A stretch of 64,000 nt of DNA from Deltaproteobacteria bacterium (lineage in GTDB: Bacteria > UBA10199 > DSSB01 > JACPFA01), in assembly GCA_016183235.1 (NCBI GenBank), contig JACPFA010000033.1:1-64000 (forward strand), written 5' to 3'. Positions 190 through 64,000 of this stretch are shown here, piece by piece. A program made the position numbers and the translations under genes. Positions within the stretch are counted from its first letter, which is position 1; the number at the start of each line of letters is the position of its first letter. The notes under the pieces were generated by a model, which saw nothing but the letters and a program-made list of their open reading frames with translations, made no database searches and was not told the DNA's origin.

Positions 190-247
190 TTTTTGTACTT
201 CATTATAATTGCAATTTTATTTTATTGAGTTTATTAAGCATCAAAAG

Positions 248-1438
248 ATGAAACCTTCTCACTCCACGTTTTACCGTAACCTGCTTATTGCTGCCCTGCT
301 ATTTTCTTTAGCAGGGATCGGGGTTAGCCTTTTTCTAGTCCAACATCATTTTATGGCTTTAAAAACTGGCAACCTTGATCTTAGCCAATGTAATTTGGGG
401 GGTAATTTTAATTGTGATATCCCGCTCATGAGCCGCTATAGTGTTTTTGCAGGCATCCCAATGGCTGGCCTTGGCTTTCTTTATTATCTCTATATTGCTC
501 TTACCGCTATTGGCGCACTCGTGGTGAGTGAAAATCGGCCGGCACTTTTAGTGCCACCAACCATCGTTAGCGTTTTGGCTATGCTGATGACTTTTTATCT
601 TATTTATGTTTCAAGTCTCGTGCTAGAAGCCTACTGCATCTTTTGTATTTCGATGTATATATTAAACCTTCTTATCACCGTTGGTTTGCTTATGATTTTA
701 TATCCTGATCGATTGCAGTGGAGAGAAACCATGAAAAAAATACCCTGGTTAGGGAGTATTCTTGCGTTTATTTTAATTTTTGGGATTGGCGGTTTTATCT
801 TTTTCTCAAAACAACAATCGCTGGCGCAAAGCAGCCAATTGCCACCTCCTGAGCAGATTATTGCTGCCTTCTTTAATCAACCTAAAATCAATATCCCTAC
901 CGACAATCGCCCTACTTGGGGTAACCCTAACGCTAAAATTACCATTGCTGAGTTTAGCGACTTTGAATGCCCCTTTTGTAAACGGGCAGCGCTTACCCTT
1001 AAACCTTTTTTGACTGAATATAAAAATGCTGTAAAATTTGTCTTTTTAAATTACCCCTTAGATCAAGCCTGTAACCCATTTTTAAAAAAACCCCTTCACA
1101 CTCTCGCATGCCAAGCCGCCTATTCAAGTCACTGTGCACATATGCAGGGGAAGTTTTGGCCTTATCACGATTTGATTTTTGCCAATCAAAAATTACTAAC
1201 CAGCGAATCTTTTAATGCCTTCGCAAAGCAACTTTCTTTAAACTTCGCTCAGTTTCAAAGTTGCCTAAGCTCCGAAGACACCAAAAACGCTATTTTGCGT
1301 GACCTGCAGGCCGGAGACGTTGCCCAAATCTCAGGCACCCCTAGCATCTTTATCAACGGCCGACCCTTCGGCTTCTGGCCCTACGCCCCCATCTTCCACC
1401 AACTCCTCCAAGAAGTAAAAAAGAATCCATCCCGGTAA
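248..1438 (+). CDS. VKOR-DsbA fusion: membrane disulfide-generating oxidoreductase
   Basis: Probable one-polypeptide system that makes disulfides in the periplasm: a vitamin K epoxide reductase membrane domain reoxidises a DsbA-like thioredoxin domain at the expense of quinone. Residues 1-185 carry about five membrane segments with the VKOR loop cysteines C48/C56 and the CxxC pair C130/C133 (CIFC). Residues 220-396 form a thioredoxin/DsbA domain with the CPFC active site at C241-C244 and a cis-Pro in GTPSIFING. I prefer the ATG at 248 to the TTG at 209, which would add 13 residues with no clear role. It is monocistronic and ends at a long hairpin. Confidence 0.88.
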   Translation: MKPSHSTFYRNLLIAALLFSLAGIGVSLFLVQHHFMALKTGNLDLSQCNLGGNFNCDIPLMSRYSVFAGIPMAGLGFLYYLYIALTAIGALVVSENRPALLVPPTIVSVLAMLMTFYLIYVSSLVLEAYCIFCISMYILNLLITVGLLMILYPDRLQWRETMKKIPWLGSILAFILIFGIGGFIFFSKQQSLAQSSQLPPPEQIIAAFFNQPKINIPTDNRPTWGNPNAKITIAEFSDFECPFCKRAALTLKPFLTEYKNAVKFVFLNYPLDQACNPFLKKPLHTLACQAAYSSHCAHMQGKFWPYHDLIFANQKLLTSESFNAFAKQLSLNFAQFQSCLSSEDTKNAILRDLQAGDVAQISGTPSIFINGRPFGFWPYAPIFHQLLQEVKKNPSR

Positions 1439-1443
1439 TCAAT

Positions 1444-1661
1444 AATTGGGCGATGGATTGCTTCAGTAAAAGGTTTCTGAAACCCTTTGCGCGAGAGCGA
1501 CGAAGTCATTCAATTCTAAAAAATGTATGGTTTGTAGAAGTTAGGGTATGACCAGAGGGAATACACTAACTTCTAAACAAACCAACATTTTTTAGGATTG
1601 AATACGAGGAGCGGAGCGCGGGTTGAAGAAACCTTTTACTGAAGCAATCCATCGCCTAATT
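1444..1661. repeat. Long palindromic element between convergent genes (core family B)
   Basis: A hairpin of about 218 nt with outer arms of about 40 nt (AATTGGGCGATGGATTGCTT and its near complement). It continues inward through AATTCTAAAAAATG. The right arm overlaps the last codon and stop of the ribonucleotide-reductase-like gene. The core motif GCGAGAGCGACGA next to the AATTCTAAAAA stem recurs at 7540-7570 although the outer arms there are different. It may also act as a bidirectional terminator. Confidence 0.85.
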
Positions 1662-3314
1662 GCGAATAGCGATGTTGATATTTTTGCACTTTGACTGATA
1701 CGCCGTCATGTAAATCTTATACACATCTTTCTCGGTAGTCCCCTTGGGCAATTCAATCACCCGTGCAATCCCATTATCAGTATATTTTTGAAACACCGCT
1801 TGCATCTTGAGTTGAATCTCGGGATCAATCTCACTGGCTATTTTAAAAATATCCCGCTCTTTTTTAGTCAATTTAGGAATTATTTTTAAATTGCCGGTTT
1901 TGATGATCTTTTGCACGATGGCTTCATCGTAAAACTCATTTTCTCGCAAAAATTCTTCAAAAGCAGGTTTGATGTGAGCTTCATCCGGTTGGCCATTAAA
2001 ATAAGTTAAAGTGGGAACTGGGGCGATGCCATTGCTAATATCGGCAATCGTAGCCAGTAAATCGGTCGGCCCTAATGCTGTAATGGTAGCGTTGCGAATG
2101 GGTTTTAATTTTTGTTTTTCAAGCAAACTACCTTTGAAGTTTGCAAAGGGCCCACGTTGTTTGGCTAAGGCAATGGATGCTTGCCGTGCACGCTTGAGCA
2201 TAAATTTCATGGTGGTGGTCGCAAACGATTTGGCCTTAGGTGAATCGTAAGGAATTTTAAGCCGCATCAATAAATCGGCAAAACCCATCACTCCCAAACC
2301 AATTTTGCGATTTGCCACTACGATTTTTTCACACTGCGGTAAGGGATAATAAGAAGCTTCAATCGCGTCGTCTAAGAATCGAACCGCCAAATCAATTAAA
2401 ATTTCAAAACGTTCTTCATTGAATCCCTTATCATCCACTAAGTTGGCCATATTGATGCTGCCATAAATGACCCCTTCATTGGGTAAAAGCGGCATTTCGC
2501 CATAGGGACTGGTGGCTTCAATTTCACCCAACTGTGGTGTGGGATTGTGGCGATTGATCTCGTCAATAAAAAGCAAGCTAGGGCTCCCGGTTTTACCGGC
2601 CGCTTTACAAATGGCCTCAAAAATATCGGCAGCCCGCACAAAATTGACGATCTGCCCAGTACGCGGATTCACCAGAGGATAAGTGGTGTCTTTTTTCAAA
2701 CAACGCATAAAATGGCTGGTGATGGCCACCGCGATGCGAAAATTTTTAAAACCTTCGTTTTCTTTACAACGGATAAATTCAAAAATATCGGGATGAGAAA
2801 TCGACAACACACCCATATTCATCCCCGGCACTCGACTCCCTTGCTTTAATACATCGGTCGCCGTGTCAAACAAGCGCATAAAATTGACCGGCCCACTCGC
2901 TTGGCCACCGGCGGTTTCAACCACATCACGGCTCGGCCTAATTTTGGAAAAACTAAAACCCGTTCCAGCCCCTGTTTTTTGTAAAATCGACATTTGTTGT
3001 ACGGCTTGGGTGATTCCTTCGACTGAATCGGGCACTGCTAAAACAAAACTCGAAAGCAATTGCCCCTTGGGAAGACCTGCATTCATTAAAGTGGGTGGAG
3101 AAGGCAAAAATTCTAGGCGCCGCATCATCTCTAAGAATTCACTCTCGTAGTATTCGATCTCATCCAGGGTACCCCACTGCCCTTCTACCCGGGCAATAGT
3201 ATGGGCAATACGACGGAACATGTCATCCGACGTTTCGATGGTACGGCCAAAGGAATCTTTGAGCAGATACCCATTTTCGATGATTTTTTGGGCTGTAGCA
3301 CTTAAACGAGCCAT
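1656..3314 (-). CDS. Class II ribonucleotide reductase homologue lacking catalytic cysteines
   Basis: A 552-residue NrdJ-like protein without the ATP cone or the usual C-terminal CxxC tail. The fold motifs are kept: PPTLMNAGLPKGQ, GAGTGFSFSKIRPSRD, LGEIEAT and TDNGIARVIELP. The catalytic N-P-C-G-E motif, which bears the thiyl-radical Cys, reads S-P-Y-G-E (TAT codon, about 2485). The redox Cys of the usual LSACF motif is Ser (LLSSF), and the third Cys (usual ESCNLGS) is Val in EGVIYGS. It therefore should not reduce ribonucleotides. The frame is intact, so it may be a repurposed or regulatory paralogue. I am confident of the family; the function is unknown. Confidence 0.85.
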   Translation of the reverse strand: MARLSATAQKIIENGYLLKDSFGRTIETSDDMFRRIAHTIARVEGQWGTLDEIEYYESEFLEMMRRLEFLPSPPTLMNAGLPKGQLLSSFVLAVPDSVEGITQAVQQMSILQKTGAGTGFSFSKIRPSRDVVETAGGQASGPVNFMRLFDTATDVLKQGSRVPGMNMGVLSISHPDIFEFIRCKENEGFKNFRIAVAITSHFMRCLKKDTTYPLVNPRTGQIVNFVRAADIFEAICKAAGKTGSPSLLFIDEINRHNPTPQLGEIEATSPYGEMPLLPNEGVIYGSINMANLVDDKGFNEERFEILIDLAVRFLDDAIEASYYPLPQCEKIVVANRKIGLGVMGFADLLMRLKIPYDSPKAKSFATTTMKFMLKRARQASIALAKQRGPFANFKGSLLEKQKLKPIRNATITALGPTDLLATIADISNGIAPVPTLTYFNGQPDEAHIKPAFEEFLRENEFYDEAIVQKIIKTGNLKIIPKLTKKERDIFKIASEIDPEIQLKMQAVFQKYTDNGIARVIELPKGTTEKDVYKIYMTAYQSKCKNINIAIRN

Positions 3315-3362
3315 AAACCTCCCATACCACTTTTACGACATACCGCGTTACCGAAAACTCTT

Positions 3363-41314: not shown

Positions 41315-41491
41315 ATGAATCAATCGGAAAAGATCGTTTGTGCCTTTTGCCACGGCCGCGGGGTAGTCCGTATTGCCAAATCATTAAAAAACAAGTTCCA
41401 CCTGTGTCACGATTGCAAAGGGACAGGGATGGAAACTGAAACCAGGGAATCGGGGGGAGGCTTGCTATGGAAGTTGATCAAGGGGCCATGA
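41315..41491 (+). CDS. Small zinc-ribbon protein with DnaJ-like CxxCxGxG motifs
   Basis: 58 residues from ATG 41315. Two cysteine motifs, CAFCHGRG (residues 9-16) and CHDCKGTG (residues 31-38), copy the zinc-binding CxxCxGxG repeats of DnaJ but without a J-domain. It overlaps the start of gvpN. In this operon, which also encodes a J-domain GvpF, it may be a separated DnaJ-type zinc module. The ribosome site is weak (CTGGGGGATGAC). Role inferred. Confidence 0.7.
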   Translation: MNQSEKIVCAFCHGRGVVRIAKSLKNKFHLCHDCKGTGMETETRESGGGLLWKLIKGP

Positions 41492-42414
41492 CCGTCGTGC
41501 AGCCCAAGGCCGGCGAAGGTTTTATCGAAACCTCTTTTATCAAAGGTGTCTTGGATCGGGCCATGCATTATCTAAAGGCCGGTTTTCCGGTTCATCTACG
41601 CGGTATCGCGGGGACCGGCAAAACGACCTTGGCATTGCGTCTTGCCGAGTTCTTGAACAGACCGGTGGTATGGCTGCAGGGAGATGAAGAACTTTCTACC
41701 ACTCATTTGATTGGAGGAGAGATCGGCTATCATAGGAGAAGTTTGCGCGACAATTTTATTTCCTCGGTCTTGAAAGTCGAAGAGGATGCCTCCAGGGAGT
41801 GGGTCGACAACAGGCTGACCCATGCCTGCCAAAACGGCTACACCCTGGTTTACGACGAATTTACCCGTTCCCGCCCAGAGGCCAACAATGTGCTCCTTTC
41901 GGTTCTGCAAGAAGGGGTCTTGAATTTCCCAACCAGCCGTGGGCAAGGGGAACAGATCATCAAAGTTCACCCCGATTTTCACGCCATTTTTACCAGCAAT
42001 CCCGAAGAATATGCTGGGGTACATCGGTCTCAGGATGCCCTCCGTGATCGATTGGTGACCCTCGACCTTGAGTCCTTCGATCGTGAATCCGAGATGAAAA
42101 TCACCCAAAAAAAATCGGGGACGCCGCTTGTCGATGCGGCCAAGATTGTTGACATCGTACGGAGTGTGCGGGATTCGGGGCAATACGAGTTTGCTCCCAC
42201 CGTTCGTGGTTGTCTGATGATTGCCAAGGCGGTCTATTCCTACAAGGGCCGTGTCAAGATTGACAAGACCGATCCCATCTTTCGACAAATCTGTTTGGAT
42301 ATTCTTACTTCCGAGACATCGCGGATCGGTAGCAAGACAACCGCAAAAAAAGTGAAAGACATTGTTTTAAAGGCGATCGACCAGTACTGCAAAAATGGGA
42401 ATGGTCACGCATGA
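41467..42414 (+). CDS. gvpN: Gas-vesicle AAA+ ATPase GvpN
   Basis: 315 residues of the MoxR-like AAA+ group. Walker A GIAGTGKTTLA (about 46-56), Walker B YTLVYDEFTRSRPEANN, sensor FTSNPEEYAG. GvpN is needed for gas-vesicle growth to full width. The ATG at 41467 has a GGGAGG site; ATG 41488 would form an ATGA overlap with the zinc-ribbon gene and is an alternative. Confidence 0.94.
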   Translation: MEVDQGAMTVVQPKAGEGFIETSFIKGVLDRAMHYLKAGFPVHLRGIAGTGKTTLALRLAEFLNRPVVWLQGDEELSTTHLIGGEIGYHRRSLRDNFISSVLKVEEDASREWVDNRLTHACQNGYTLVYDEFTRSRPEANNVLLSVLQEGVLNFPTSRGQGEQIIKVHPDFHAIFTSNPEEYAGVHRSQDALRDRLVTLDLESFDRESEMKITQKKSGTPLVDAAKIVDIVRSVRDSGQYEFAPTVRGCLMIAKAVYSYKGRVKIDKTDPIFRQICLDILTSETSRIGSKTTAKKVKDIVLKAIDQYCKNGNGHA

Positions 42415-42436
42415 ATAAAAAATCAGGAGGACGTTT

Positions 42437-42781
42437 ATGAGTATTTTAGCCAGACCACAGCGGGGCTGTGCTTCGATCAAGGGGACCTCACGTATCAAAC
42501 ACCTGGCAAGCTTGGGTGGCGAACTTGCCCACGAGGCAAACCGCCTCTATATGCTGACTGTGAAGCGAGAGAGCATGGTGAATAAAAAACGTTCCATTGA
42601 AACCCGGCTCAAGGAGATCAACAAGGTGTTAAAAGAGATCGAGGTAGAAACCGATATTAGCAGCAAAAAATACAGCCTGCTGAGCGGCACGCACACCCCT
42701 CGTCGAAGTCGCGCCAAGACTCATGATGAGGCAACATCCGCCCAAACAACATCTACCAAAATGTTTTCTATGAAATACTAA
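42437..42781 (+). CDS. Unknown small helical protein of the gvp operon
   Basis: 114 residues: a central helical hairpin (about 25-75; EANRLYMLTVKRESM and EIEVETDISSKKYSLL) and a basic, Ser/Thr-rich tail. A good AGGAGG ribosome site precedes it. No family recognised, though it may be a divergent gas-vesicle accessory protein. Lies between gvpN and the Hsp20 gene. Confidence 0.68.
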   Translation: MSILARPQRGCASIKGTSRIKHLASLGGELAHEANRLYMLTVKRESMVNKKRSIETRLKEINKVLKEIEVETDISSKKYSLLSGTHTPRRSRAKTHDEATSAQTTSTKMFSMKY

Positions 42782-42792
42782 GAGGCAAGTTT

Positions 42793-43380
42793 ATGGCTAA
42801 AAAAAATGCTCACAAAAAAGAAAATCAGAAACCAGATGCTGAAATTGAGCTTGGTGGCAAGGGGCTACTTGGCGGGTTTTTCAAAGGGCTCGGTAGCCTC
42901 ATCGAACTTGCCGATAAACTTGGCAAGACGGGAGGGATCGAAAAAAGTGGGACGTTTGGGGTCAATGGGCAAAAAGACGTCAATGGGGTCTATGGTTTTT
43001 CGATCAAGACCATGACCGGGCCGGGAGGCGCCGCAAGGCCGGTGGTCCAACCGTTTGGTGATTTGTCAAAATTCAAACCCTCAGCGCAATCGGTCAAAAA
43101 ACAAAAGCCCGCCGGACCCACCGTGGAGGAGGCACGCGAACCCCTCACGGATATTTTTGACGAAGGCGGCTTTGTGCGGATTGTCGTGGAACTCCCGGGG
43201 GTTTCAGAGCCTGAACTGGTTTGTGAGATTCAAGGAGACGACATCGTTCAGATTTCGACAACCGGTAACAAGAAATATTCCAAAGAGATCCTTCTCACCC
43301 ATAAAATCGACCCAGCAAGCGAGGAAAAAAGATTCACGAACGGTGTGTTGGAACTCAAGCTCAAAAAGAAGGTCAAATGA
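42793..43380 (+). CDS. gvpH: Hsp20/alpha-crystallin protein (GvpH-like)
   Basis: 195 residues: a Gly-rich N-terminal part and a C-terminal alpha-crystallin-like domain (about 117-195; DEGGFVRIVVELPGVSEPEL ... NGVLELKLKKK). GvpH proteins are small heat-shock proteins that keep gas-vesicle subunits soluble. ATGA-type overlap with the AAA gene downstream. Confidence 0.87.
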   Translation: MAKKNAHKKENQKPDAEIELGGKGLLGGFFKGLGSLIELADKLGKTGGIEKSGTFGVNGQKDVNGVYGFSIKTMTGPGGAARPVVQPFGDLSKFKPSAQSVKKQKPAGPTVEEAREPLTDIFDEGGFVRIVVELPGVSEPELVCEIQGDDIVQISTTGNKKYSKEILLTHKIDPASEEKRFTNGVLELKLKKKVK

Positions 43381-45554
43381 TGCCCGAGCGCAAAGAAAAA
43401 ACGGCAGAAGCAAAAAGCGCGACCCTTCGTGTCGGGGAGGCCCTCTCCAAAGACGTGGGGCGTGGAGTGGCACGAATCGACCCTGCGGAAATGGAGAAAT
43501 TGGGCGTAAAGGTGGGAGAGGTAATCCATATCAAGGGGGAAAGAACCGTTGGCGCCAAGGTGCTGCCAACCTTCTCAGACCACCGCGGTCGTGGGATGAT
43601 CGAAATTGATGGAATTATGCGCGAAAATGCCAAGGTCGGTCTTGATGAAAAAGTGCGGGTGACACCGGGGAATTTTGAACCAGCCAAATCCGTAACGCTC
43701 AAGACCCTGTCCCGGTTAGGCTTGGTCGATCCATCAGGACAGACCCGCTATCTGGGGCGCATGGTTGAAGGGCTTCCAGTGGCCAAAGGTGACAAGGTAC
43801 AGGTGGCCCTGTTTGGTTCAAGAACTCGGCAATTTCATGTGATCCAAACCGCTCCTGAAGGCATTGTTTTAGTCACACCACAGACATCCATCAAGGTCGA
43901 AGAACCCAAAAGCAGAGAGGAAGCAAAGGGTGAATCAGACCAGGCAACCATTTCCTACGAAGACGTTGGAGGTTTGGGAAAAGAGATTCAACGGGTTCGC
44001 GAGATGATCGAGCTGCCCCTCAAAAGCCCACAAATTTTTGAGCGTTTGGGCATTGATCCTCCCAAAGGGGTTCTGCTTTACGGACCTCCGGGTACCGGAA
44101 AAACGCTGATTGCCCGCGCGGTGGCCCACGAATCGGATGCCAATTTTTACACCGTGGCAGGCCCCGAGATTGTCCACAAATTTTATGGCGAGTCAGAGCA
44201 ACATTTAAGAAGCATTTTTGCGGAAGCCTCGCGCAATGCCCCAGCGATCATCTTCATCGACGAGATCGACTCGGTGGCCCCAAAGCGGGCCAATGTGCAG
44301 GGAGAGGTGGAAAAAAGGATTGTGGCAACACTTTTAAATCTCATGGATGGGCTGAAATCCCGCGGTGAATTGATTGTCATCGGGGCGACCAACATGCCCG
44401 ATCTGTTGGACCAGGCATTGCGGCGACCCGGCCGCTTTGACCGCGAGATTGTCATCGGAATTCCAGACCGCGACGGACGCTTGAAGATCCTTGAGATCCA
44501 CACCCGCGGCATGCCCATGGCCGCAGACGTCAGCCTGGAGCGACTCGCCGACATCACTCATGGCTACGTTGGCGCAGACCTCGAAGCCCTCGCCCGCGAA
44601 GCAGCGATGAGCTGTCTGCGCGAATCGATGGAGAAGGGAGATATCACCCTCGAAGATGTCCCCTACGACGTTATCGAATCACTCGAGGTAAATCACACTC
44701 ACTTCATGCAAGCACTCAATGAGGTGGAACCCTCAGCCATTCGCGAGGTCTCCATTGAAGTACCCAACGTCCACTGGGCCGACATCGGCGGACTTGACAA
44801 CGCAAAAATGATTTTGAGGGAAAGCGTCGAATGGCCGCTGCGCTACGACAAACTTTTCGAAAAGGCTAGGTTCAAACCAACAAAGGGAATTCTGTTGGGG
44901 GGACCGCCGGGGACAGGAAAGACCTTGCTCGCCAAGGCCCTGGCCACCGAATCGGAGGTCAACTTTATTTCTATCAAGGGCCCTGAGCTTGTTTCTAAAT
45001 GGATTGGAGAGTCTGAAAAGGGAATCCGCGAAGTCTTCAAGAAGGCAAAATCCGCGGCCCCTTGCATCCTTTTTTTCGACGAGATGGATTCAATTGCGCC
45101 ACGGCGGAGTTCCGGAGAGGGAGATTCGGGGGTCATGGGCCGAACGATCAGCCAATTTTTAACCGAGTTGGATGGGCTGGAAGAATTGAGAGGGGTGGTT
45201 GTGCTTGGCGCCACCAATCGAACAGACCTGATTGATCCGGCCATCCTTAGGCCCGGGCGCTTTGATCACTTGATTCAGTTGGGCCTCCCCGACATTGACG
45301 CAAGGGAGGCTATCTTCAAGATCCACACCCGAGACAGGCCCATGGAGCAAGGGATCAACATGTCCAAATTGGCTCGGGAAACGGAAGGGATGAGCGGGGC
45401 AGAGATCGAGGCCATCTGCAAACAGGCCATCACCCTTGCCATTCGGGAGTTTATCGGGGCCCATCCAAAAGATGCCAACGAAAAGGCCGAAAAATTTTGG
45501 GTCCGCAAGGCACATTTTGACGCTGCCGCAAAGAAGAAGGGGGACGCGACATGA
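43377..45554 (+). CDS. CDC48/VAT-type double AAA+ ATPase
   Basis: 725 residues: a CDC48 N-domain (about 15-185), D1 with Walker A GPPGTGKTLIA and Walker B IIFIDEIDSVAP, and D2 with GPPGTGKTLLA and ILFFDEMDSIAP. Unfoldase of archaeal/eukaryotic type, found in several gas-vesicle clusters. It may extract or remodel GvpA-family or other clients. ATG 43377 or 43380 could start it; the first overlaps the upstream TGA. Confidence 0.92.
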   Translation: MMPERKEKTAEAKSATLRVGEALSKDVGRGVARIDPAEMEKLGVKVGEVIHIKGERTVGAKVLPTFSDHRGRGMIEIDGIMRENAKVGLDEKVRVTPGNFEPAKSVTLKTLSRLGLVDPSGQTRYLGRMVEGLPVAKGDKVQVALFGSRTRQFHVIQTAPEGIVLVTPQTSIKVEEPKSREEAKGESDQATISYEDVGGLGKEIQRVREMIELPLKSPQIFERLGIDPPKGVLLYGPPGTGKTLIARAVAHESDANFYTVAGPEIVHKFYGESEQHLRSIFAEASRNAPAIIFIDEIDSVAPKRANVQGEVEKRIVATLLNLMDGLKSRGELIVIGATNMPDLLDQALRRPGRFDREIVIGIPDRDGRLKILEIHTRGMPMAADVSLERLADITHGYVGADLEALAREAAMSCLRESMEKGDITLEDVPYDVIESLEVNHTHFMQALNEVEPSAIREVSIEVPNVHWADIGGLDNAKMILRESVEWPLRYDKLFEKARFKPTKGILLGGPPGTGKTLLAKALATESEVNFISIKGPELVSKWIGESEKGIREVFKKAKSAAPCILFFDEMDSIAPRRSSGEGDSGVMGRTISQFLTELDGLEELRGVVVLGATNRTDLIDPAILRPGRFDHLIQLGLPDIDAREAIFKIHTRDRPMEQGINMSKLARETEGMSGAEIEAICKQAITLAIREFIGAHPKDANEKAEKFWVRKAHFDAAAKKKGDAT

Positions 45555-46570
45555 GTCTGTATCTTTACGGGGTCATTGATAGCCAAGACAAGGTCGCCCT
45601 AGGGCCAATCGGCTTTGACCGCCAGCAGGTAGAGATTTTGCCCGCGGGGAGGCTGGCGGCTATGGTGGGCCCTTCACCCCAAGAAGATTTTTTTCACATG
45701 CCGAAAGAAAAACTGGTGGGGCTTCTCCTGTCCCACCAACAAACACTCGAGACCGTCATGAAACGTTTTTTTGTCCTTCCCTTCAAATTCGGAACGACCC
45801 TAAAGGATGAATCGGAAGCAACCCGGATTTTGCAAGAGGGAAGAGAAGCGCTAACCAAACTCATGGGGCAAATGAAAGGCTGCACCGAAATCGACGTCAT
45901 CGCAACTTGGGATGTGAAAAAAACCCTCCAGGAGATTGCCGAAGAAGATCCTGAAATCGCTGCGTGTAAAAAGGCAGTAACCCACGGCCACACCAACGGC
46001 GACGTGGCCTTTGTGGGCATGCTCCTTGCCAAGGCCCTAAAACAAAGGGCCGAACAATGGAAAGGCGAAATTACCCAGGCCCTTTTCAACTATAATGTCG
46101 CTCCTCACGATCTGTTGAATGACACCATGATCCTCAATTCATCTTTTCTAGTCCCCCATCAAGAAGAAAAGAATTTTATGACAAAGCTCGAAAAAGTAGA
46201 TGCCCATTTTGGTGGAAAAATCCATTTCAAATGCGTGGGTCCCCTCCCCCCTTATAGTTTTGCAACGATCATGATCAAACGGTTTGACCCCGTCCAGATT
46301 CAACAGGCGGCCGCCATGCTTCGTTTAAACGGCCGGACCGAATTATTAGAACTCAAAAAAATCTACCGACAATTATCTAAAGAGTTTCATCCGGATCACT
46401 GTTTAAAACCTTCTCAAAACGAGGCTGGGTTTGAAGACATCAACAAGGCCTATGAAATGGTCGCTGACTATTGCAAAGACGGACCCAAGTCGCTCGAAAG
46501 GGCCGCGGTAGAGAGTTTTTCACGGTTGGAGGTCTGCGCAGCACAACAGGAGTCGCACTGTGCGGCATGA
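45551..46570 (+). CDS. gvpF: GvpF/L protein fused to a C-terminal J-domain
   Basis: 339 residues. Residues 1-245 are GvpF/GvpL (MSLYLYGVID ..., FVLPFKFGT, VGPLPPYSFATIMI). After a short linker, residues about 262-315 form a compact J-domain: ELLELKKIYRQLSKEFHPDH with HPD at 280-282 and GFEDINKAYEMV as helix III. GvpF binds GvpA during assembly, so the fusion could recruit DnaK directly to it. The tail has three Cys residues. ATGA overlap upstream. Confidence 0.9.
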   Translation: MSLYLYGVIDSQDKVALGPIGFDRQQVEILPAGRLAAMVGPSPQEDFFHMPKEKLVGLLLSHQQTLETVMKRFFVLPFKFGTTLKDESEATRILQEGREALTKLMGQMKGCTEIDVIATWDVKKTLQEIAEEDPEIAACKKAVTHGHTNGDVAFVGMLLAKALKQRAEQWKGEITQALFNYNVAPHDLLNDTMILNSSFLVPHQEEKNFMTKLEKVDAHFGGKIHFKCVGPLPPYSFATIMIKRFDPVQIQQAAAMLRLNGRTELLELKKIYRQLSKEFHPDHCLKPSQNEAGFEDINKAYEMVADYCKDGPKSLERAAVESFSRLEVCAAQQESHCAA

Positions 46571-46580
46571 AGGAAAATAT

Positions 46581-47300
46581 ATGTATGGAATTATCGCAAC
46601 CGACGAAGCCCCAAATTTTGGGCCCATAGGAATGGGAGGGGGTGAAAGTGAAGTGATTACGGTGGGCACTCAAGGATTGGCCGCGGTGATCAGCGATGCC
46701 TCGCTGGATCACTACACCCTTTCCAAAGAAAACCTCACGACCCATACCCGCGTGATTGAAAAAGTGGCAGAAGACTACACAATTCTTCCCATGCGATTTT
46801 GCACCGTGGCCGAATCAACCGATGAGATACTCTCTTTTTTGGAGGACAACGAGCGTCAACTCAAAAACAGCCTAAAAGATTTAGAGGGAAAGGTGGAGAT
46901 CGGGATCAAAATCATTTGGAAAAACATGAAAGAGATTTACGAGGAAATGACCCTTGAAAACCGCAAGATAAAAGAAATTAAAACAGGGGGCGGCAAAGAC
47001 ATGCAAGGCCTGATCCAGGCCGGACAAATGGTCGAAGTCGCCCTAGAAGAAAAAAAAGCGGTTGAGGGGGAGGAATATCTTCGACCCCTAAAAAAAATGT
47101 CGGTCCGATTCAAGGAGGAAGAAAACAAGACAGAAGACATGGTCGTCACCGCTTCCTTCCTGATAGATAAGGCGTGGCTTGGCGAGTTTGATGCGCAGGT
47201 AGACAAAATGGGGCGGGAGCATCATAAACGGATTGATGTTAAATATATTGGCCCGATTCCTCCGTTTAGTTTTGTTAATCTAGAAATGCATTGGGAGTGA
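46581..47300 (+). CDS. gvpL: GvpF/L family protein
   Basis: 239 residues from ATG 46581 (AAGGA 6 nt upstream; the frame start at 46560 overlaps the preceding gene). GvpF/L motifs: YGIIATDEAPNF, ILPMRFCTVAES, and the terminal YIGPIPPFSFVNLEM. Cytoplasmic assembly factor, one of four in the operon. Confidence 0.92.
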   Translation: MYGIIATDEAPNFGPIGMGGGESEVITVGTQGLAAVISDASLDHYTLSKENLTTHTRVIEKVAEDYTILPMRFCTVAESTDEILSFLEDNERQLKNSLKDLEGKVEIGIKIIWKNMKEIYEEMTLENRKIKEIKTGGGKDMQGLIQAGQMVEVALEEKKAVEGEEYLRPLKKMSVRFKEEENKTEDMVVTASFLIDKAWLGEFDAQVDKMGREHHKRIDVKYIGPIPPFSFVNLEMHWE

Positions 47301-47306
47301 GAATTT

Positions 47307-48107
47307 ATGAATGGACTTTGGCTCTATTGCATCATTGAAAACCGCGGGGAAATGAAATGGAACTGCCTTGGGATTCATGGTACCAGCGCGGTCTTTGTGG
47401 TACCCGGCGGTGAGTTTGCCGCGGTGGTTTCCGAGGAACCGATGAAAAAGTATCCACTGGTGCGCGACTATTTGATCGCTCACCAAAAGGTGAATGAAAC
47501 AGTGATGCAGGGGCGTTCGGTGCTGCCGGTCCGGTTTTGCACCATGACGGAGCGCAAGGAAAAGATTGTTGACGAGGTGCTCGTACCCAAGGCGCAGGAG
47601 TTTCGGAAAGAATTCGCCGAAATCGAAGGGAAAGAGGAATATGGGTTGCGAGTTCGGTGGACAAACCTCGACCGTATTTTTCGTGAGATAGGTGAAACCG
47701 ATGAAAAGATTTTAGAGAAAAAAAAGAAAATCCTTTTGCAGACCGAAGCAGAGAGACGCATTGAACTGGTTGACATTGGGCATTGGGTTCAAACGGCGAT
47801 CCAGCAAAAGAACCAAGCCATGGTCGACGCCTTGATGGCAGAACTTGTTCCACTCGCAACTCGGTCGAAGAAAAATAACACGCTGGGAGATGCCATGATT
47901 TTAAACGCGGCGTTCCTGCTCAAAAAGGGTGTTGAGCCAGCCTTGAGCGCCAAGGTTTTGTCCCTGGATGAAAAATACAAAGGCCTGCTGCAGTTCAAGT
48001 ATGTCGGCCCTGTGCCGCCGTTCAATTTTGTAGAAATCGTTATCAAGTGGCGAGAAGAGCCAAGCCACGCCACGGTGCAAGGAGAAAAAAATGTTTCTGT
48101 TGGATGA
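47307..48107 (+). CDS. gvpL: GvpF/L family protein
   Basis: 266 residues with WLYCIIENRGE, SVLPVRFCTMTERKE and YVGPVPPFNFVEIVIK, and a charged helical middle. Closest in layout to the preceding gene. It overlaps gvpG by 17 nt. Confidence 0.92.
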   Translation: MNGLWLYCIIENRGEMKWNCLGIHGTSAVFVVPGGEFAAVVSEEPMKKYPLVRDYLIAHQKVNETVMQGRSVLPVRFCTMTERKEKIVDEVLVPKAQEFRKEFAEIEGKEEYGLRVRWTNLDRIFREIGETDEKILEKKKKILLQTEAERRIELVDIGHWVQTAIQQKNQAMVDALMAELVPLATRSKKNNTLGDAMILNAAFLLKKGVEPALSAKVLSLDEKYKGLLQFKYVGPVPPFNFVEIVIKWREEPSHATVQGEKNVSVG

Positions 48108-48321
48108 CCTATTGCTTGCCCCCATCAAGGGGGTTAAATGGCTCGGCGAGAAACTTCGAACCATGGCCGACAAGGAGCTCTTTGATCCCGACAAGATTCA
48201 AGAGGAACTCATGACCCTTCAAGCCAAACTCGATATGGGCGAGATTGCCGAGCAAGAATACGAGGCAAAAGAAGTAGAGCTACTGAAGAGACTTTCGGAA
48301 ATTCAAGAAAGGCAGGAGTAA
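48091..48321 (+). CDS. gvpG: Gas-vesicle protein GvpG
   Basis: 76 residues: LLDDLLLAPIKGVKWLGEKL followed by a long charged helix ending EVELLKRLSEIQERQE, as in GvpG. Small accessory protein that joins the GvpF/L complex. Its start lies within the end of the preceding gene. Confidence 0.92.
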   Translation: MFLLDDLLLAPIKGVKWLGEKLRTMADKELFDPDKIQEELMTLQAKLDMGEIAEQEYEAKEVELLKRLSEIQERQE

Positions 48322-48325
48322 AGTT

Positions 48326-48616
48326 ATGTTTGGTATCCATGAAGCACAACAAAAGGTCGTTGATTTTCTCGCAACGGAGCTTGGAAAAGAGCGGGAAATG
48401 ATACGTTTTATCAAGATGGCGAAGTTTGAAGCCAATTGGGAGGCAAAAGTTGAGGTAACAGAACTCAACGAATACCTCAAAAAATTGGGACATCCTACAA
48501 TCTTTGACAGAAACGTCTACACCGTGGTGCTCGATCCGACCCTTGAGATTGTGAGTTTTGCTCAAACCGCTTCCCGCGAACGAAGTTACGCAACGGAAGA
48601 GCGAGAGGAAATTTAA
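48326..48616 (+). CDS. gvpO: GvpO-like gas-vesicle protein
   Basis: 96 residues. The C-terminal half WEAKVEVTELNEYLKKLG ... FDRNVYTVVLDPTLEIVSF resembles the single GvpO domain (beta-strand rich, with the W-x-V/E-E pattern). Role in assembly or regulation; assignment is by similarity pattern and position after gvpG. Confidence 0.78.
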   Translation: MFGIHEAQQKVVDFLATELGKEREMIRFIKMAKFEANWEAKVEVTELNEYLKKLGHPTIFDRNVYTVVLDPTLEIVSFAQTASRERSYATEEREEI

Positions 48617-48631
48617 GGAAGGAAGTTCGCC

Positions 48632-48853
48632 ATGCAACATTCAACTCATGGGGAGAGTTTAGCCGATGTGGTGGAACGTGTCCTCGATAAGGGGTTGGTC
48701 ATCAACGCCGATATCGTAATTTCGCTTTGTCAAACCGAACTTATTTCCATCAAACTGCGCGCCGCCATCGCCTCTTTTGAGACAGCGGCCAAGTGGGGGC
48801 TCGCCTTTCCTTCCGACACGCGAATAAATGCGCCCGTGTCAGCGAAGGTTTAA
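48632..48853 (+). CDS. gvpJ: GvpJ (GvpA-family minor shell protein)
   Basis: 73 residues of the GvpA fold (LADVVERVLDKGLVINADIV then RAAIASFETAAKW), differing from GvpA in the second half as GvpJ/M/S do. Minor shell or tip component, probably nucleating the bicone. Has an AAGGAAGG ribosome site. Confidence 0.9.
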   Translation: MQHSTHGESLADVVERVLDKGLVINADIVISLCQTELISIKLRAAIASFETAAKWGLAFPSDTRINAPVSAKV

Positions 48854-48868
48854 AAAACGGGGTGTTAT

Positions 48869-49189
48869 ATGAAACTCGAAATTGACGACAAAGAACTCAA
48901 ACACGGAGTACTGGGGCTTGTGCTGGCAGTGGTTGAAGTGATACGCGACACCTTGAAGATCCAGTCGGTCAAAAGAATGGAGGGGGGGCGCTTGACTGAG
49001 CAGCAAATTGAACGGTTGGGCAACGCACTCCTAGAGCTTGACCGCGCGATTGAACAGATCAAAGAAGAACAAGGTGTTTCCGAAGCAGTCCGGTCGGTGA
49101 GAGATGGCTTGGATGATCTCGTGAACAGCATGATTCATACGGTTGCAAACCCCATCAACGCCGAAAAAGATGGGTGTTTTAATGTCTAA
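48869..49189 (+). CDS. gvpK: Gas-vesicle protein GvpK
   Basis: 106 residues: DDKELKHGVLGLVLAVVEVIRDTLKIQSVKR, GGRLTEQQIERLGNALLELDRAIEQ, typical of GvpK, an essential helical assembly protein. Its 3' end overlaps the next gvpF/L frame. Confidence 0.92.
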   Translation: MKLEIDDKELKHGVLGLVLAVVEVIRDTLKIQSVKRMEGGRLTEQQIERLGNALLELDRAIEQIKEEQGVSEAVRSVRDGLDDLVNSMIHTVANPINAEKDGCFNV

Positions 49190-49949
49190 AGGGATTTACC
49201 TATTTTGCGTCGCTGTGGGGTCTCAGGAGGAGGATCTAGTGCTCAAAGGGATTGGGGGAGAGGCAGTTTTTACGGTATCGACCGCTGGACTTTCCGCGGT
49301 GGTGCAATCTTGTGGTGAGCCTTTTTCCTCAAAGGATCCCAAACTGATCTCGGAATGGATTTTAACCCATCAGGCCGTGGTAGATTTTGCCTGGGAACGT
49401 TTTGCAACGGTACTTCCTTTCAGCTTTGATACGATTGTCATCGAGAAAGATGGAAAATCGGCCCGTGAGAATCTCTTGGCCTGGCTTGAAAAAGAGGCCA
49501 TTGCCCTCAGAGAAAAATTGGCAAGGCTTGAAGGAAAGGCGGAGTATGGTGTGCAGATCTCGTGGGACCCTTTGCGCATAGCCCCTCGAATCACACAGCG
49601 GGACGCTAATTTTCAGTTACTTGAGGCAAAAATTCAAGCAGCCCCCCCTGGCACGGCCTATCTTTTAAAGCAGCAATTGGAAGCCCTCCTCAAAGAGCGG
49701 CTCGAAATAGCGGCAGATGCCTATTTTAAGGAATTCTATCAAAAGATCAAAGAGTGCACTGAGGAGGTCAAGGTTGAAAAAACAAAAAAAGAAGAGGCGC
49801 CCCGCCAGATGCTTGCCAATCTGTCTTGCCTGGCTCCCAAGGAAAGTATTGCCCGATTGGGGGATCAATTAGACAAGATCGGAAAGATAGATGGATTCTT
49901 TGTTCGATTTACGGGCCCCTGGCCTCCCTACAGTTTTGTAAATTTATAA
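49182..49949 (+). CDS. gvpF: GvpF/L family protein
   Basis: 255 residues from ATG 49182 (MSKGIYLFCV), which overlaps the gvpK stop by 8 nt; ATG 49170 is an alternative. Motifs TVLPFSFDT and FTGPWPPYSFVNL. Fourth GvpF/L of the operon; no J-domain here. Confidence 0.9.
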   Translation: MSKGIYLFCVAVGSQEEDLVLKGIGGEAVFTVSTAGLSAVVQSCGEPFSSKDPKLISEWILTHQAVVDFAWERFATVLPFSFDTIVIEKDGKSARENLLAWLEKEAIALREKLARLEGKAEYGVQISWDPLRIAPRITQRDANFQLLEAKIQAAPPGTAYLLKQQLEALLKERLEIAADAYFKEFYQKIKECTEEVKVEKTKKEEAPRQMLANLSCLAPKESIARLGDQLDKIGKIDGFFVRFTGPWPPYSFVNL

Positions 49950-49962
49950 ATAGTGTGAACAC

Positions 49963-50181
49963 ATGGAACCCGCTCGTTCAGGCCATGCCACATTGGTGGA
50001 CTTACTCGACCGAATTCTCGATAAGGGGTTGATTTTAAATGCCGACCTGATTATCTCTTTAGCGGGAGTACCCCTCATCGCCGTTTCACTTCGAGCGGCC
50101 ATCGCCAGCATTGAAACCATGGCAAAATACGGGATGATGAGAGAGTTGATTCAAGACGCAAGTCGAGAAAAAATTCATTAA
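49963..50181 (+). CDS. gvpJ: Second GvpJ-like minor shell protein
   Basis: 72 residues of the GvpA fold (LVDLLDRILDKGLILNADLI, RAAIASIETMAKYGM). Third GvpA-family gene of the operon and its last gvp gene. About 90 nt separate it from dnaK. Confidence 0.9.
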   Translation: MEPARSGHATLVDLLDRILDKGLILNADLIISLAGVPLIAVSLRAAIASIETMAKYGMMRELIQDASREKIH

Positions 50182-60823: not shown

Positions 60824-63040
60824 CTATCTTTGATGACAAGTGCCACAGGTATTTCCGGTGTGGCAGGCGGTGGCGCAACTTGCTTTCAAGCTTTCAGCTC
60901 GAAAATCGTTTCCGTGAAAAACGGGGGACCAACGATCGATCCATCCCATTGCATGGTAGCGTTTATCAGGAGAGGCGGTTTCGGGGGTGAGGTCGTTTTT
61001 ACCATGACAAGCTAGGCAGGCACCTGAACCTGAATGACAAGTGCTGCATTCTGACGGATTGGCCCAAAAGCTTGCTCCGTGCCCTTGGAAGCTGCCGAGG
61101 TGATTGCGACTGTAGGCCTCGAGAGGTTCTCTGGGTTTGTGACATTCAAGGCACGTTGTCGTGGGATTAACGGGGCCCTCTATTTTAACGGGTTGATGAC
61201 AATGACTGCATTGCGCCAACGGCACAGCGCTTGTTGCGAGCAAAGCTTGATCGGTTGAGTATTGATGGGTTGATTTCCAATTAGCTTCAGGATGCACCAC
61301 CACCTGCCTCTTCGTGTGACAGGTGTTACATGTCCCTTCGGCTCCCTTAGATGGAAGCGTAGGCACACCTTCTCCATTATCGGTATGGCAAGTGGGGCAG
61401 GCAACACCTAAAGCGCCCGTGGTATGCTGCCCATAAATACGATGATCGATGTTAGGTGGAATTTGTGCAGAGGGTTTTTCGGTATGGCAATAGTCACAAT
61501 TCTTTTCTTCTATTTCGTCATGACAACTTACACATACTTTCTCTTTTGGGCGTAATTGGCCAGAATCCTTGGGCCTATGACAAGTGCTGCAATTGTCGTC
61601 CATGTCTAAATAGGTAGTACCTGAATAACCGGGAGTCGCAAAATGGGGAACATGCTTGAGCGCAAAAGGCGCCGCTGCATCCCGAGGCGAAACGGGCACA
61701 TTAAGGGCATAGCTGCTCGGAGTTTCTTTCGGAGAAGGTCTCCAGGCAATTTGCACAAGCCCTCTTACATCTATACCAGAACCCCCAAAAGTTGAGGCTG
61801 GGGTCAAAACCTCCGCAACAGGTGCAACATAAAATCCCTCCCCAATAGCAACTTCAGCAGAGACCCTACCCCCACCTGACAGCTGATCCTCGGGTTGATA
61901 GGGTTGCCCCGGGCTTGGCATATAAAATTCTGCGGGTACATCAAAAGGTGGCAGAGAAAGAATATCGGCTGGCTCTACATAATTTAAATAACCCGTGGCT
62001 AATAAAACAACAGGGCCCAAGGTGGTACGAACGTTCAAAGCTAGTTGGCTAAGTCCCCCATCGGTTTCGCTGTCACGCCTCATCCCGGTTAAACCCATTT
62101 GGGTAAAATAATCTAATAATGAAAATCGAATATCTGCATTGAGTTGATAGCCATCTAATTCACTCTCACGCATTAAAAGGCCAGCTACCGTCATGACCTC
62201 AAGACGGTAGGCACCTGGAAAATCAAAAGACAAGGCTCCGGCCAGATCCACCTGATGTCGAGGTAAGCTGGTTGGCCCATCCGCTACTTTTTCTCCATCC
62301 ACATAGACCTGACCCCCTGGAAATAAAACTTCTAAGGGATGCCCCTTTAGTAAAGACGCTAAAGGGTTTTGATCGTATTGATAAGCCACCCAAACTCGCC
62401 ACGTGGAATCGGTAAGAACGGTCAATCGAGCCGCCCCTTTAGTGACGCTTTCTGACAAGGGATCGATGTCAACCATACCTTGAAGGGAACCAAGGCCTGG
62501 ATGAGAATAAGCACCGCCTAGACCAACATCCACAGTTTCTAGGTCTGGAAAGGGCTTGCGGTAATCAGCTCGAGTGTAAAAGATTAACCCATCGATGGGT
62601 CGCAGAGAAAGTTTTGCCCCCACGCTAGGAGAATCATCATGAACTTCAGAATAAAGATCGACAGGCCAACCTACATACGCATCAAACCCAAGCCAAGGCG
62701 CGATAACAAACCGCCCGGCTACCCCATCGAGCGATAAAGGCGCACCATGGTCTAATAAAAAAAGCCGCCCGGCTTGAACTGCTCCCGATCTCCAAGAATA
62801 TTGGGCATAAGCTTGATCGACAAAAAGTTTATAATTCCCCTCTCCACGATTATCTTCGGTCACTCCGCCTATTCTTAAAAAAGCCTTGGCTTTCTCATAT
62901 AAAGCTACCCAACCATCAAAGTCAAAAAGCCCCGCATAGTGATCTTCTTGTAAAAAAGAACCCACCCGGGGATTGAGATTGTAAGTAATGACTGCAGGCT
63001 CCGAAGTTGCTCCAACCGCTAATGGCCCTTTATCCCCCAT
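60824..63040 (-). CDS. Outer-membrane barrel fused to a multihaem cytochrome c domain
   Basis: 738 residues from ATG 63040. Residues about 1-450 alternate as beta strands with amphipathic pattern, like an outer-membrane barrel. Residues about 470-738 hold ten CxxCH haem sites (CSTCH, CVSCH, CDYCH, CPTCH, CNTCH and others) plus one CATACH. It lacks a signal peptide, odd for such a protein. Removing one G from the G5 at 63034-63038 would join it in frame to the upstream multihaem frame. Probably moves electrons across the outer membrane. Confidence 0.82.
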   Translation of the reverse strand: MGDKGPLAVGATSEPAVITYNLNPRVGSFLQEDHYAGLFDFDGWVALYEKAKAFLRIGGVTEDNRGEGNYKLFVDQAYAQYSWRSGAVQAGRLFLLDHGAPLSLDGVAGRFVIAPWLGFDAYVGWPVDLYSEVHDDSPSVGAKLSLRPIDGLIFYTRADYRKPFPDLETVDVGLGGAYSHPGLGSLQGMVDIDPLSESVTKGAARLTVLTDSTWRVWVAYQYDQNPLASLLKGHPLEVLFPGGQVYVDGEKVADGPTSLPRHQVDLAGALSFDFPGAYRLEVMTVAGLLMRESELDGYQLNADIRFSLLDYFTQMGLTGMRRDSETDGGLSQLALNVRTTLGPVVLLATGYLNYVEPADILSLPPFDVPAEFYMPSPGQPYQPEDQLSGGGRVSAEVAIGEGFYVAPVAEVLTPASTFGGSGIDVRGLVQIAWRPSPKETPSSYALNVPVSPRDAAAPFALKHVPHFATPGYSGTTYLDMDDNCSTCHRPKDSGQLRPKEKVCVSCHDEIEEKNCDYCHTEKPSAQIPPNIDHRIYGQHTTGALGVACPTCHTDNGEGVPTLPSKGAEGTCNTCHTKRQVVVHPEANWKSTHQYSTDQALLATSAVPLAQCSHCHQPVKIEGPVNPTTTCLECHKPREPLEAYSRNHLGSFQGHGASFWANPSECSTCHSGSGACLACHGKNDLTPETASPDKRYHAMGWIDRWSPVFHGNDFRAESLKASCATACHTGNTCGTCHQR

Positions 63041-64000
63041 GGTGACACTCCTGACATACAGGTTCTTGATAAGTAGTTTTGGGCTCATGGGCCTGGTTGT
63101 GACAAAGGCCCAAATTTCCCTTACTACACGTGTTTTGAATGGCTGGAATGGTGCGGGTATCGTAATGAATATTTTCGGCGGGGCTCATGCCTTCTGCATT
63201 CACAAATAAAGGGCTGAAGTGCATAAACGCAGTATGCCCAGGGCTATTAGTAGATACCCAAGGGGAATTATCATAAGACACATGGGGATAGGCGGTGTGA
63301 CATTCATAACAAGAAGGCACGCCTTGCAAATTATTCAGAGCAAGGTCGGCTTTGCTTTGTTGGTTCGAGCTAAACCCCACAACCTCACCGTGACATTTCA
63401 AGCAATTTTGATTAGACTTCGAATAATAAAATCCGTGGCCCTCACCTTTGGCCCATTGCCCAACATGGGTCACCCCTTCTTTTGAATCATGGCAGCCGAT
63501 GCGTTCACAGTTAAGTTTAGGGCGTACCCCTTCATCGGTGCGATCATAATCTTCGCCGTGACAGGTGCTGCAAACTTTTGCATCGGTTTTGCGTTCTTTT
63601 AAGAAAGTAAGCGCATGTTCGGTTTTAGGCGCAGGGCTCAACCAATCACTTTGCCGATGCGGATATAAGGCATGGCATTCATAACAAGAAGGTGCCAGGT
63701 CACTACCTTCAAAAGAAGAACCATGACAATTGACCGTATCACACGATTGCTTACCATCATCGTAGGCCTCTGCACCATGCACCTTGCCCTTTTCCCAACG
63801 GTTGTTGCCATTGTGACCTTGAATGTGCGGATAATTTTCGTGGCATTTGAAACAAGAAATACCTGAGTTGCCTCCCTTAAGATCATCGCCATGACAATTG
63901 CTGCATTTTATTTGCCCTTCATTATGACACAGGCGGCAAGAATCTGGTTTTCCATCAACCTTGGTTAGTTCGAACGTGTAGGTCCCATGTTTAACTTTGG
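63030..64000 (-). CDS. Multihaem c-type cytochrome, 5' end outside the window
   Basis: The frame is open to the window edge, giving at least 323 residues. Eight CxxCH sites (CRLCH, CSNCH, CFKCH, CYECH twice, CSTCH, CLKCH, CQECH) and two CxxxxCH sites (CDTVNCH, CERIGCH), the alternating pattern of Geobacter-type CxxxxCH/CxxCH proteins. It ends ...CQECHHGG at TAA 63030. The export signal must be upstream of the window. May be the N-terminal half of one protein with the next gene. Confidence 0.85.
   Translation of the reverse strand, partial: KVKHGTYTFELTKVDGKPDSCRLCHNEGQIKCSNCHGDDLKGGNSGISCFKCHENYPHIQGHNGNNRWEKGKVHGAEAYDDGKQSCDTVNCHGSSFEGSDLAPSCYECHALYPHRQSDWLSPAPKTEHALTFLKERKTDAKVCSTCHGEDYDRTDEGVRPKLNCERIGCHDSKEGVTHVGQWAKGEGHGFYYSKSNQNCLKCHGEVVGFSSNQQSKADLALNNLQGVPSCYECHTAYPHVSYDNSPWVSTNSPGHTAFMHFSPLFVNAEGMSPAENIHYDTRTIPAIQNTCSKGNLGLCHNQAHEPKTTYQEPVCQECHHGG

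Follow-up and report, generated by a model that had tools for sequence, protein, structure and literature searches.

A class II ribonucleotide reductase paralogue without catalytic cysteines as a candidate pseudoenzyme, and a second cysteine-less reductase-like family

The locus and the reductase genes of the genome

The window analysed here is a stretch of 64,000 nucleotides from contig JACPFA010000033.1. Near its beginning lies a reverse-strand gene for a class II ribonucleotide reductase (RNR) paralogue in which the catalytic cysteines are replaced (hereafter the Cys-less NrdJ), and this gene is convergent with one for a VKOR-DsbA-like thiol oxidoreductase, named from sequence resemblance (Table 1). 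Translation gave an ATG start, 552 amino acids and no internal stops, so the intact frame described in an earlier sequence-only reading of this DNA was confirmed; a GGGAGG Shine-Dalgarno element was also present. The end of a giant hairpin provides the last base of the TAG stop codon. This hairpin is a repeat with a shared core of ~145 bp, which together with its arms folds at −79.8 kcal/mol (z −21), and the arms are long inverted repeats that differ between several copies yet stay complementary. Farther along the window, gas-vesicle-cluster-like genes (GvpN- and GvpF/L-like proteins) were seen at ~41,400-50,000, and proteins with many CxxCH motifs, resembling multihaem cytochromes, at 60,824-63,782.

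The protein was assigned by Pfam to PF02867 (RNR barrel domain, E 9e-98) and also matched PF00317 (all-alpha domain). Against TIGR02504 (NrdJ_Z) it scored 464.8 bits, above the curated cut-off of 399.95, and against the PRK08665 equivalog (NF006417) 634.5 bits, below the cut-off of 961 of a model that is longer than the protein. The best solved relative was the NrdJ of T. maritima. An AlphaFold2 model was built from an input alignment of 39 sequences (pLDDT 92.2, pTM 0.93) and matched NrdJ 1xje over 547 residues (Z 49.6, 1.8 Å); the RNR barrel fold is thus predicted to be kept, with a Z of about 50 to NrdJ structures. PADLOC returned no match for the Cys-less NrdJ, and a defence role was rejected for this reason.

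Searching the genome with PF02867 retrieved three genes, all on contig C33. Besides the Cys-less NrdJ these were a catalytic class II NrdJ (1427 aa; C33:111,241-115,524) with all cysteines kept, which answers the earlier question of whether the genome holds another reductase, and an RNR-like protein of 854 aa that is also Cys-less. The catalytic NrdJ carries an intein where its radical Cys lies (locus L008, 5242-9525). NrdR was present in the genome, and neither NrdB nor NrdD was found there.

Table 1. Features of the locus in window coordinates (except the last row), with residues numbered in the Cys-less NrdJ and compared with T. maritima (Tm) NrdJ
Feature	Position	Strand	Evidence
Convergent neighbour, VKOR-DsbA-like thiol oxidoreductase	209..1438	+	Name from sequence resemblance
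Giant hairpin, repeat with ~30 genome matches (L171-L186)	1444..1661	.	
Cys-less class II RNR (NrdJ), candidate pseudoenzyme, 552 aa	1656..3314	-	Pfam, TIGR02504, AlphaFold2
IARVIE where near-invariant VSKTxN stands	1752..1769	-	Alignment, conservation count
PTDLL where PTGTI/S phosphate loop stands	2055..2069	-	Alignment
V282 replaces Cys333 (active-site Cys pair; ESCNLGS Cys)	2469..2471	-	Alignment
E273 = Glu324, retained (general-base Glu)	2496..2498	-	Alignment; PMC4728125 Table 4
Y271 replaces Cys322 (radical Cys, finger loop, NPCGE)	2502..2504	-	Alignment
S269 replaces Asn320 (substrate 3'-OH contact)	2508..2510	-	Alignment; contact PMC4728125 Table 4
V162 replaces Arg207 (loop 2, substrate phosphate contact)	2829..2831	-	Alignment; PMC4728125 Table 4
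R126 = Arg171, retained (effector phosphate contact)	2937..2939	-	Alignment; PMC4728125 Table 4
K113 = Lys158, retained (effector phosphate contact)	2976..2978	-	Alignment; PMC4728125 Table 4
D96 = Asp141, retained (effector ribose contact)	3027..3029	-	Alignment; PMC4728125 Table 4
S89 replaces Tm NrdJ Cys134 (active-site Cys pair; LSACF Cys)	3048..3050	-	Alignment
P73 replaces Ser91 (substrate phosphate contact)	3096..3098	-	Alignment; PMC4728125 Table 4
Shine-Dalgarno GGGAGG, 3 nt before ATG of the Cys-less NrdJ	3318..3323	-	Sequence
Second Cys-less RNR-like protein, 854 aa	L007 3511-6075 (G000:C33:81,510-84,071)		Motif inspection

Residues, orthologues and selection

Residue correspondence was taken from the alignment of the Cys-less NrdJ with T. 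maritima NrdJ (PDB 1xje, 3o0o), in which the substrate is contacted at its ribose and phosphate by N320, E324, S91 and R207, and the effector by D141, K158 and R171 (PMC4728125, Table 4). The two proteins share the fold, 35% identity over 547 residues and the three effector contacts, but C134, C322, C333, N320, S91 and R207 are all replaced here and the C-terminal Cys pair is absent. The losses listed in the sequence-only reading were recovered: NPCGE has become SPYGE (residues 269-273), the LSACF and ESCNLGS cysteines are Ser and Val, and the protein ends in KNINIAIRN, without the Cys-bearing C-terminal extension of ~55 aa found in its orthologues. No remnant of this tail was seen in the three frames downstream of the gene. 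Insertion of the hairpin repeat was considered as the event that removed the tail and was weakened as an explanation: should TAATTG be a target duplication, the pre-insertion sequence would still stop one codon later, and the tail was then probably lost before the insertion.

Degeneration proved to be deeper than first described. Substrate or catalytic contacts were lost at six of seven positions and effector contacts kept at three of three (Fisher p 0.03). Conservation in at least 95% of 48 Cys-intact homologues held for 84 positions, and the Cys-less NrdJ departs from it at 21; each of the 48, left out in turn, departs at no more than five (median 2). The changed conserved sites cluster along the sequence (p 0.02). 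Within residues 94-181, a region that covers the effector site and was picked post hoc, 0 of 17 conserved positions were changed versus 21 of 67 elsewhere (p 0.004); with the limits set at residues 90-165 the count was 1 of 12 (p 0.14).

The order was sampled with eight genomes, including the source genome (G000). Orthologues were found in four of them (G001, G002, G004 and G007; 54-58% identity); these PRK08665-type short NrdJ proteins are adjoined by the same convergent VKOR-DsbA-like gene and form, with full support (100), the sister group of the Cys-less NrdJ in the tree. All four retain the three cysteines, NPCGE and a tail containing Cys, in contrast to the Cys-less NrdJ, whose rate of evolution is about twice theirs. 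Because these same-order relatives keep their cysteines, the loss arose within the order and is no ancient feature of the family. No copy of the short NrdJ was found in G003, G005 or G006 (same-order drafts, 73-84% complete).

Among 79 loci from the genome-collection scan, one other full-length match had no radical Cys. This Woesearchaeota NrdJ (L034, 4022-6058) reads NPYGE with both other cysteines kept, its radical Cys having been replaced by Tyr in parallel; NPCGE is kept in its near relative L037. Three tandem RNR genes, with the catalytic cysteines all present, were seen at L031, L032, L033, L035, L038, L048, L053, L056, L058 and L063, loci belonging to Microgenomates, Woesearchaeota and similar records.

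Branch lengths from the same fork were 0.82 changes per site to the Cys-less NrdJ and ~0.40 to its sisters. The corresponding branches of the catalytic NrdJ in the same genomes measured 0.29 versus about 0.25-0.29, and on this comparison the acceleration is not genome-wide; the VKOR-DsbA-like neighbour is likewise long-branched. Purifying selection, which the sequence-only reading had named as a check, was addressed with a codon model in which omega fixed at 1 on the Cys-less NrdJ branch was rejected (lnL −6518.5 versus −6497.4, 2ΔlnL 42), in a test that spans the whole branch including pre-loss time, contains one Cys-less copy and has saturated synonymous sites. An extra neutral phase on the branch was disfavoured (best length about 0), and the excess of 0.42 amino acid changes per site would, if neutral, be expected to bring ~11 stops where 0 were observed. 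These results oppose a long neutral decay, and neither date nor exclude a recent onset, since the sites are saturated and the branch predates the loss. Ordinary decay of the Cys-less NrdJ is unlikely.

Readings of the Cys-less NrdJ

We give about an even chance to the Cys-less NrdJ being a pseudoenzyme under selection, which arose from the accessory short class II NrdJ still present in Cys-intact form in the sister genomes. Such a protein would still dimerise, would bind a dNTP or NTP at the specificity site and would act through binding, reducing no ribonucleotide, as a nucleotide-responsive scaffold, a partner or an effector sink that serves the rest of the dNTP machinery. With the catalytic residues and most of those for the substrate lost and the effector contacts kept, the most economical guess is that dNTP is bound at the dimer interface and no chemistry follows. 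The protein would probably be a dimer, binding dNTP but carrying out no reduction. Nucleotide sensing is plausible and compatible with the kept D96, K113 and R126. Loop 2, the link between effector and substrate, is altered, so that sensing, if any, would no longer direct which substrate is chosen; given this change, effector binding could be altered too. The non-reductase role proposed in the sequence-only reading thus stands as far as the lost catalytic residues and the apparently selected frame go, but not as an old non-reductase family, the loss being confined to one lineage. Control by NrdR was rejected for the Cys-less NrdJ, as no NrdR box was found in a scan around its start or those of its four orthologues.

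That reading had also held that orthologues all keeping the cysteines would mark this copy as a decaying pseudogene or an assembly error. Every orthologue does keep them, but neither consequence was borne out. In an early pseudogene, the accessory reductase would have become dispensable in this lineage and would be decaying with the first stop still to come; a branch twice the sister length beside a catalytic NrdJ that is not accelerated agrees with this, as do the cysteines kept in every orthologue and the absence of the copy from the three drafts mentioned above. We nevertheless consider it fairly unlikely, because omega of 1 was rejected, because 21 conserved sites have changed while the gene stayed free of stops and frameshifts and kept its Shine-Dalgarno, and because those sites are clustered. 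Error in assembly or sequencing can be put aside as extremely improbable: the genome is a single draft of 51 contigs, but the changes are coherent over many codons, several, such as Cys to Val GTC and Leu to Tyr, require two base changes, no frameshift is present and synteny with relatives is kept. The sequence-only reading had dismissed sequencing error as well.

A structural or regulatory partner, joining either the catalytic NrdJ or the second Cys-less RNR-like protein in a heteromer, is suggested by the three RNR-type genes of the genome lying within ~115 kb on one contig and by the conserved dimer and effector region. For the second Cys-less protein alone, NrdR boxes in relatives point to the reductase regulon. 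This arrangement is nonetheless unlikely in our judgement, as identity to the catalytic NrdJ is only about 25-30%, which makes a shared dimer interface doubtful. The kept general-base Glu (E273) and intact fold would suit a neofunctional enzyme whose barrel catalyses a different reaction, possibly still with adenosylcobalamin; with the radical Cys and most substrate contacts lost, and no new conserved catalytic set discernible from one sequence, we regard this as quite improbable.

Reductase homologues with other roles occur in viruses. M45 of murine cytomegalovirus is an RNR large-subunit homologue that has no reductase activity and serves another role. The same holds for cytomegalovirus UL45, an R1 homologue without reductase activity (PMC5469499). 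These viral proteins are class I derived and target host signalling. The AdoMetDC prozyme of T. brucei, a dead paralogue that activates its active partner (PMC5201418), offers a parallel in that a catalytically dead copy stands beside an active one in one genome; it belongs to another enzyme family, and the partner activation established there is at most conceivable for the Cys-less NrdJ. Literature searches on inactive bacterial RNRs gave nothing on point, and no published case was found of a class II RNR paralogue in a cellular organism that has lost all its catalytic cysteines. The word "inactive" does not occur in the searched text of the family-wide RNR studies PMC9531940 and PMC9669993.

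The second Cys-less family and dNTP control

Relatives of the 854-aa protein were found in G001, G002, G003, G004, G007, G010, G014, G024 and G029, with weaker ones in G042 and G044 (family loci L007, L123, L124, L125, L126, L127, L130, L143, L145 and L148), and by sequence this putative family spans about a dozen genomes of the class. Its members are degenerate to differing degrees, since those of G004 and G014 retain, of the three cysteines, just the one at the C333 position, and that of G024, with HPCHA, has one at the radical position with the other two missing. The protein of G019 is intermediate, keeping three cysteines with DPCSG in place of NPCGE. Deep branches of the family are very long in the tree and their order is unsure.

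Pfam TSCPD was matched by the proteins of G000, G002 and G010. An ATP-cone in those of G000 and G002 fell below the Pfam cut-off (E 0.007 for the 854-aa protein), and hhalign of the N-terminal part of the 854-aa protein against true ATP-cones gave a probability of 41%; the ATP-cone name is provisional for these reasons. A MltD/LysM-type gene, named by resemblance, is divergent from the family gene in G000, G001, G002 and G010. The closest pair, G002/G007, had a dN/dS of 0.21 (dS 0.18, 511 codons) and is the sole direct evidence for purifying selection on members without catalytic Cys. The remaining pairs tested (dS 0.8 to 2.1) are far more diverged, which makes their dN/dS less reliable.

NrdR sites were scanned for as two 16-bp boxes, 31-33 bp apart, in the 500-bp regions around each frame start. 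Second-family genes scored 38 (G001), 36 (G002), 35 (G003), 36 (G004) and 34 (G010), and catalytic nrdJ genes 38 (G000), 35 (G001), 35 (G004), 31 (G002) and 30 (G003), against a background of 1388 tiles with a median of 24 and a 99th percentile of 30; the scoring scheme was our own and was fixed after the first boxes had been seen, and the top background tiles probably include the same sites. In G001 and G002 a TTGACA-like element precedes the first box. The same scan showed no tandem pair at the second-family genes of G000, G014, G019, G024 and G029.

Non-catalytic RNR-like proteins may be used in dNTP control by this bacterial class, as is suggested by this second, more widespread family, which appears to be under NrdR in five genomes. 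A broader proposal, which we hold as possible but rather doubtful, is that the class regulates its class II RNR by dedicated proteins of this kind: a Cys-less TSCPD family with a weak ATP-cone-like part, under NrdR together with nrdJ in several genomes, and here in addition a pseudo-reductase from an accessory NrdJ that would still read dNTPs at the specificity site. The second family is marked by NrdR boxes, which tie it to nrdJ, and this opens the idea of a non-catalytic RNR regulator to genetic and biochemical testing. Should the Cys-less proteins prove to bind dNTPs and to influence the working enzyme, overall dNTP control in class II organisms could lie with a distinct regulatory subunit, for which we know of no precedent in class II.
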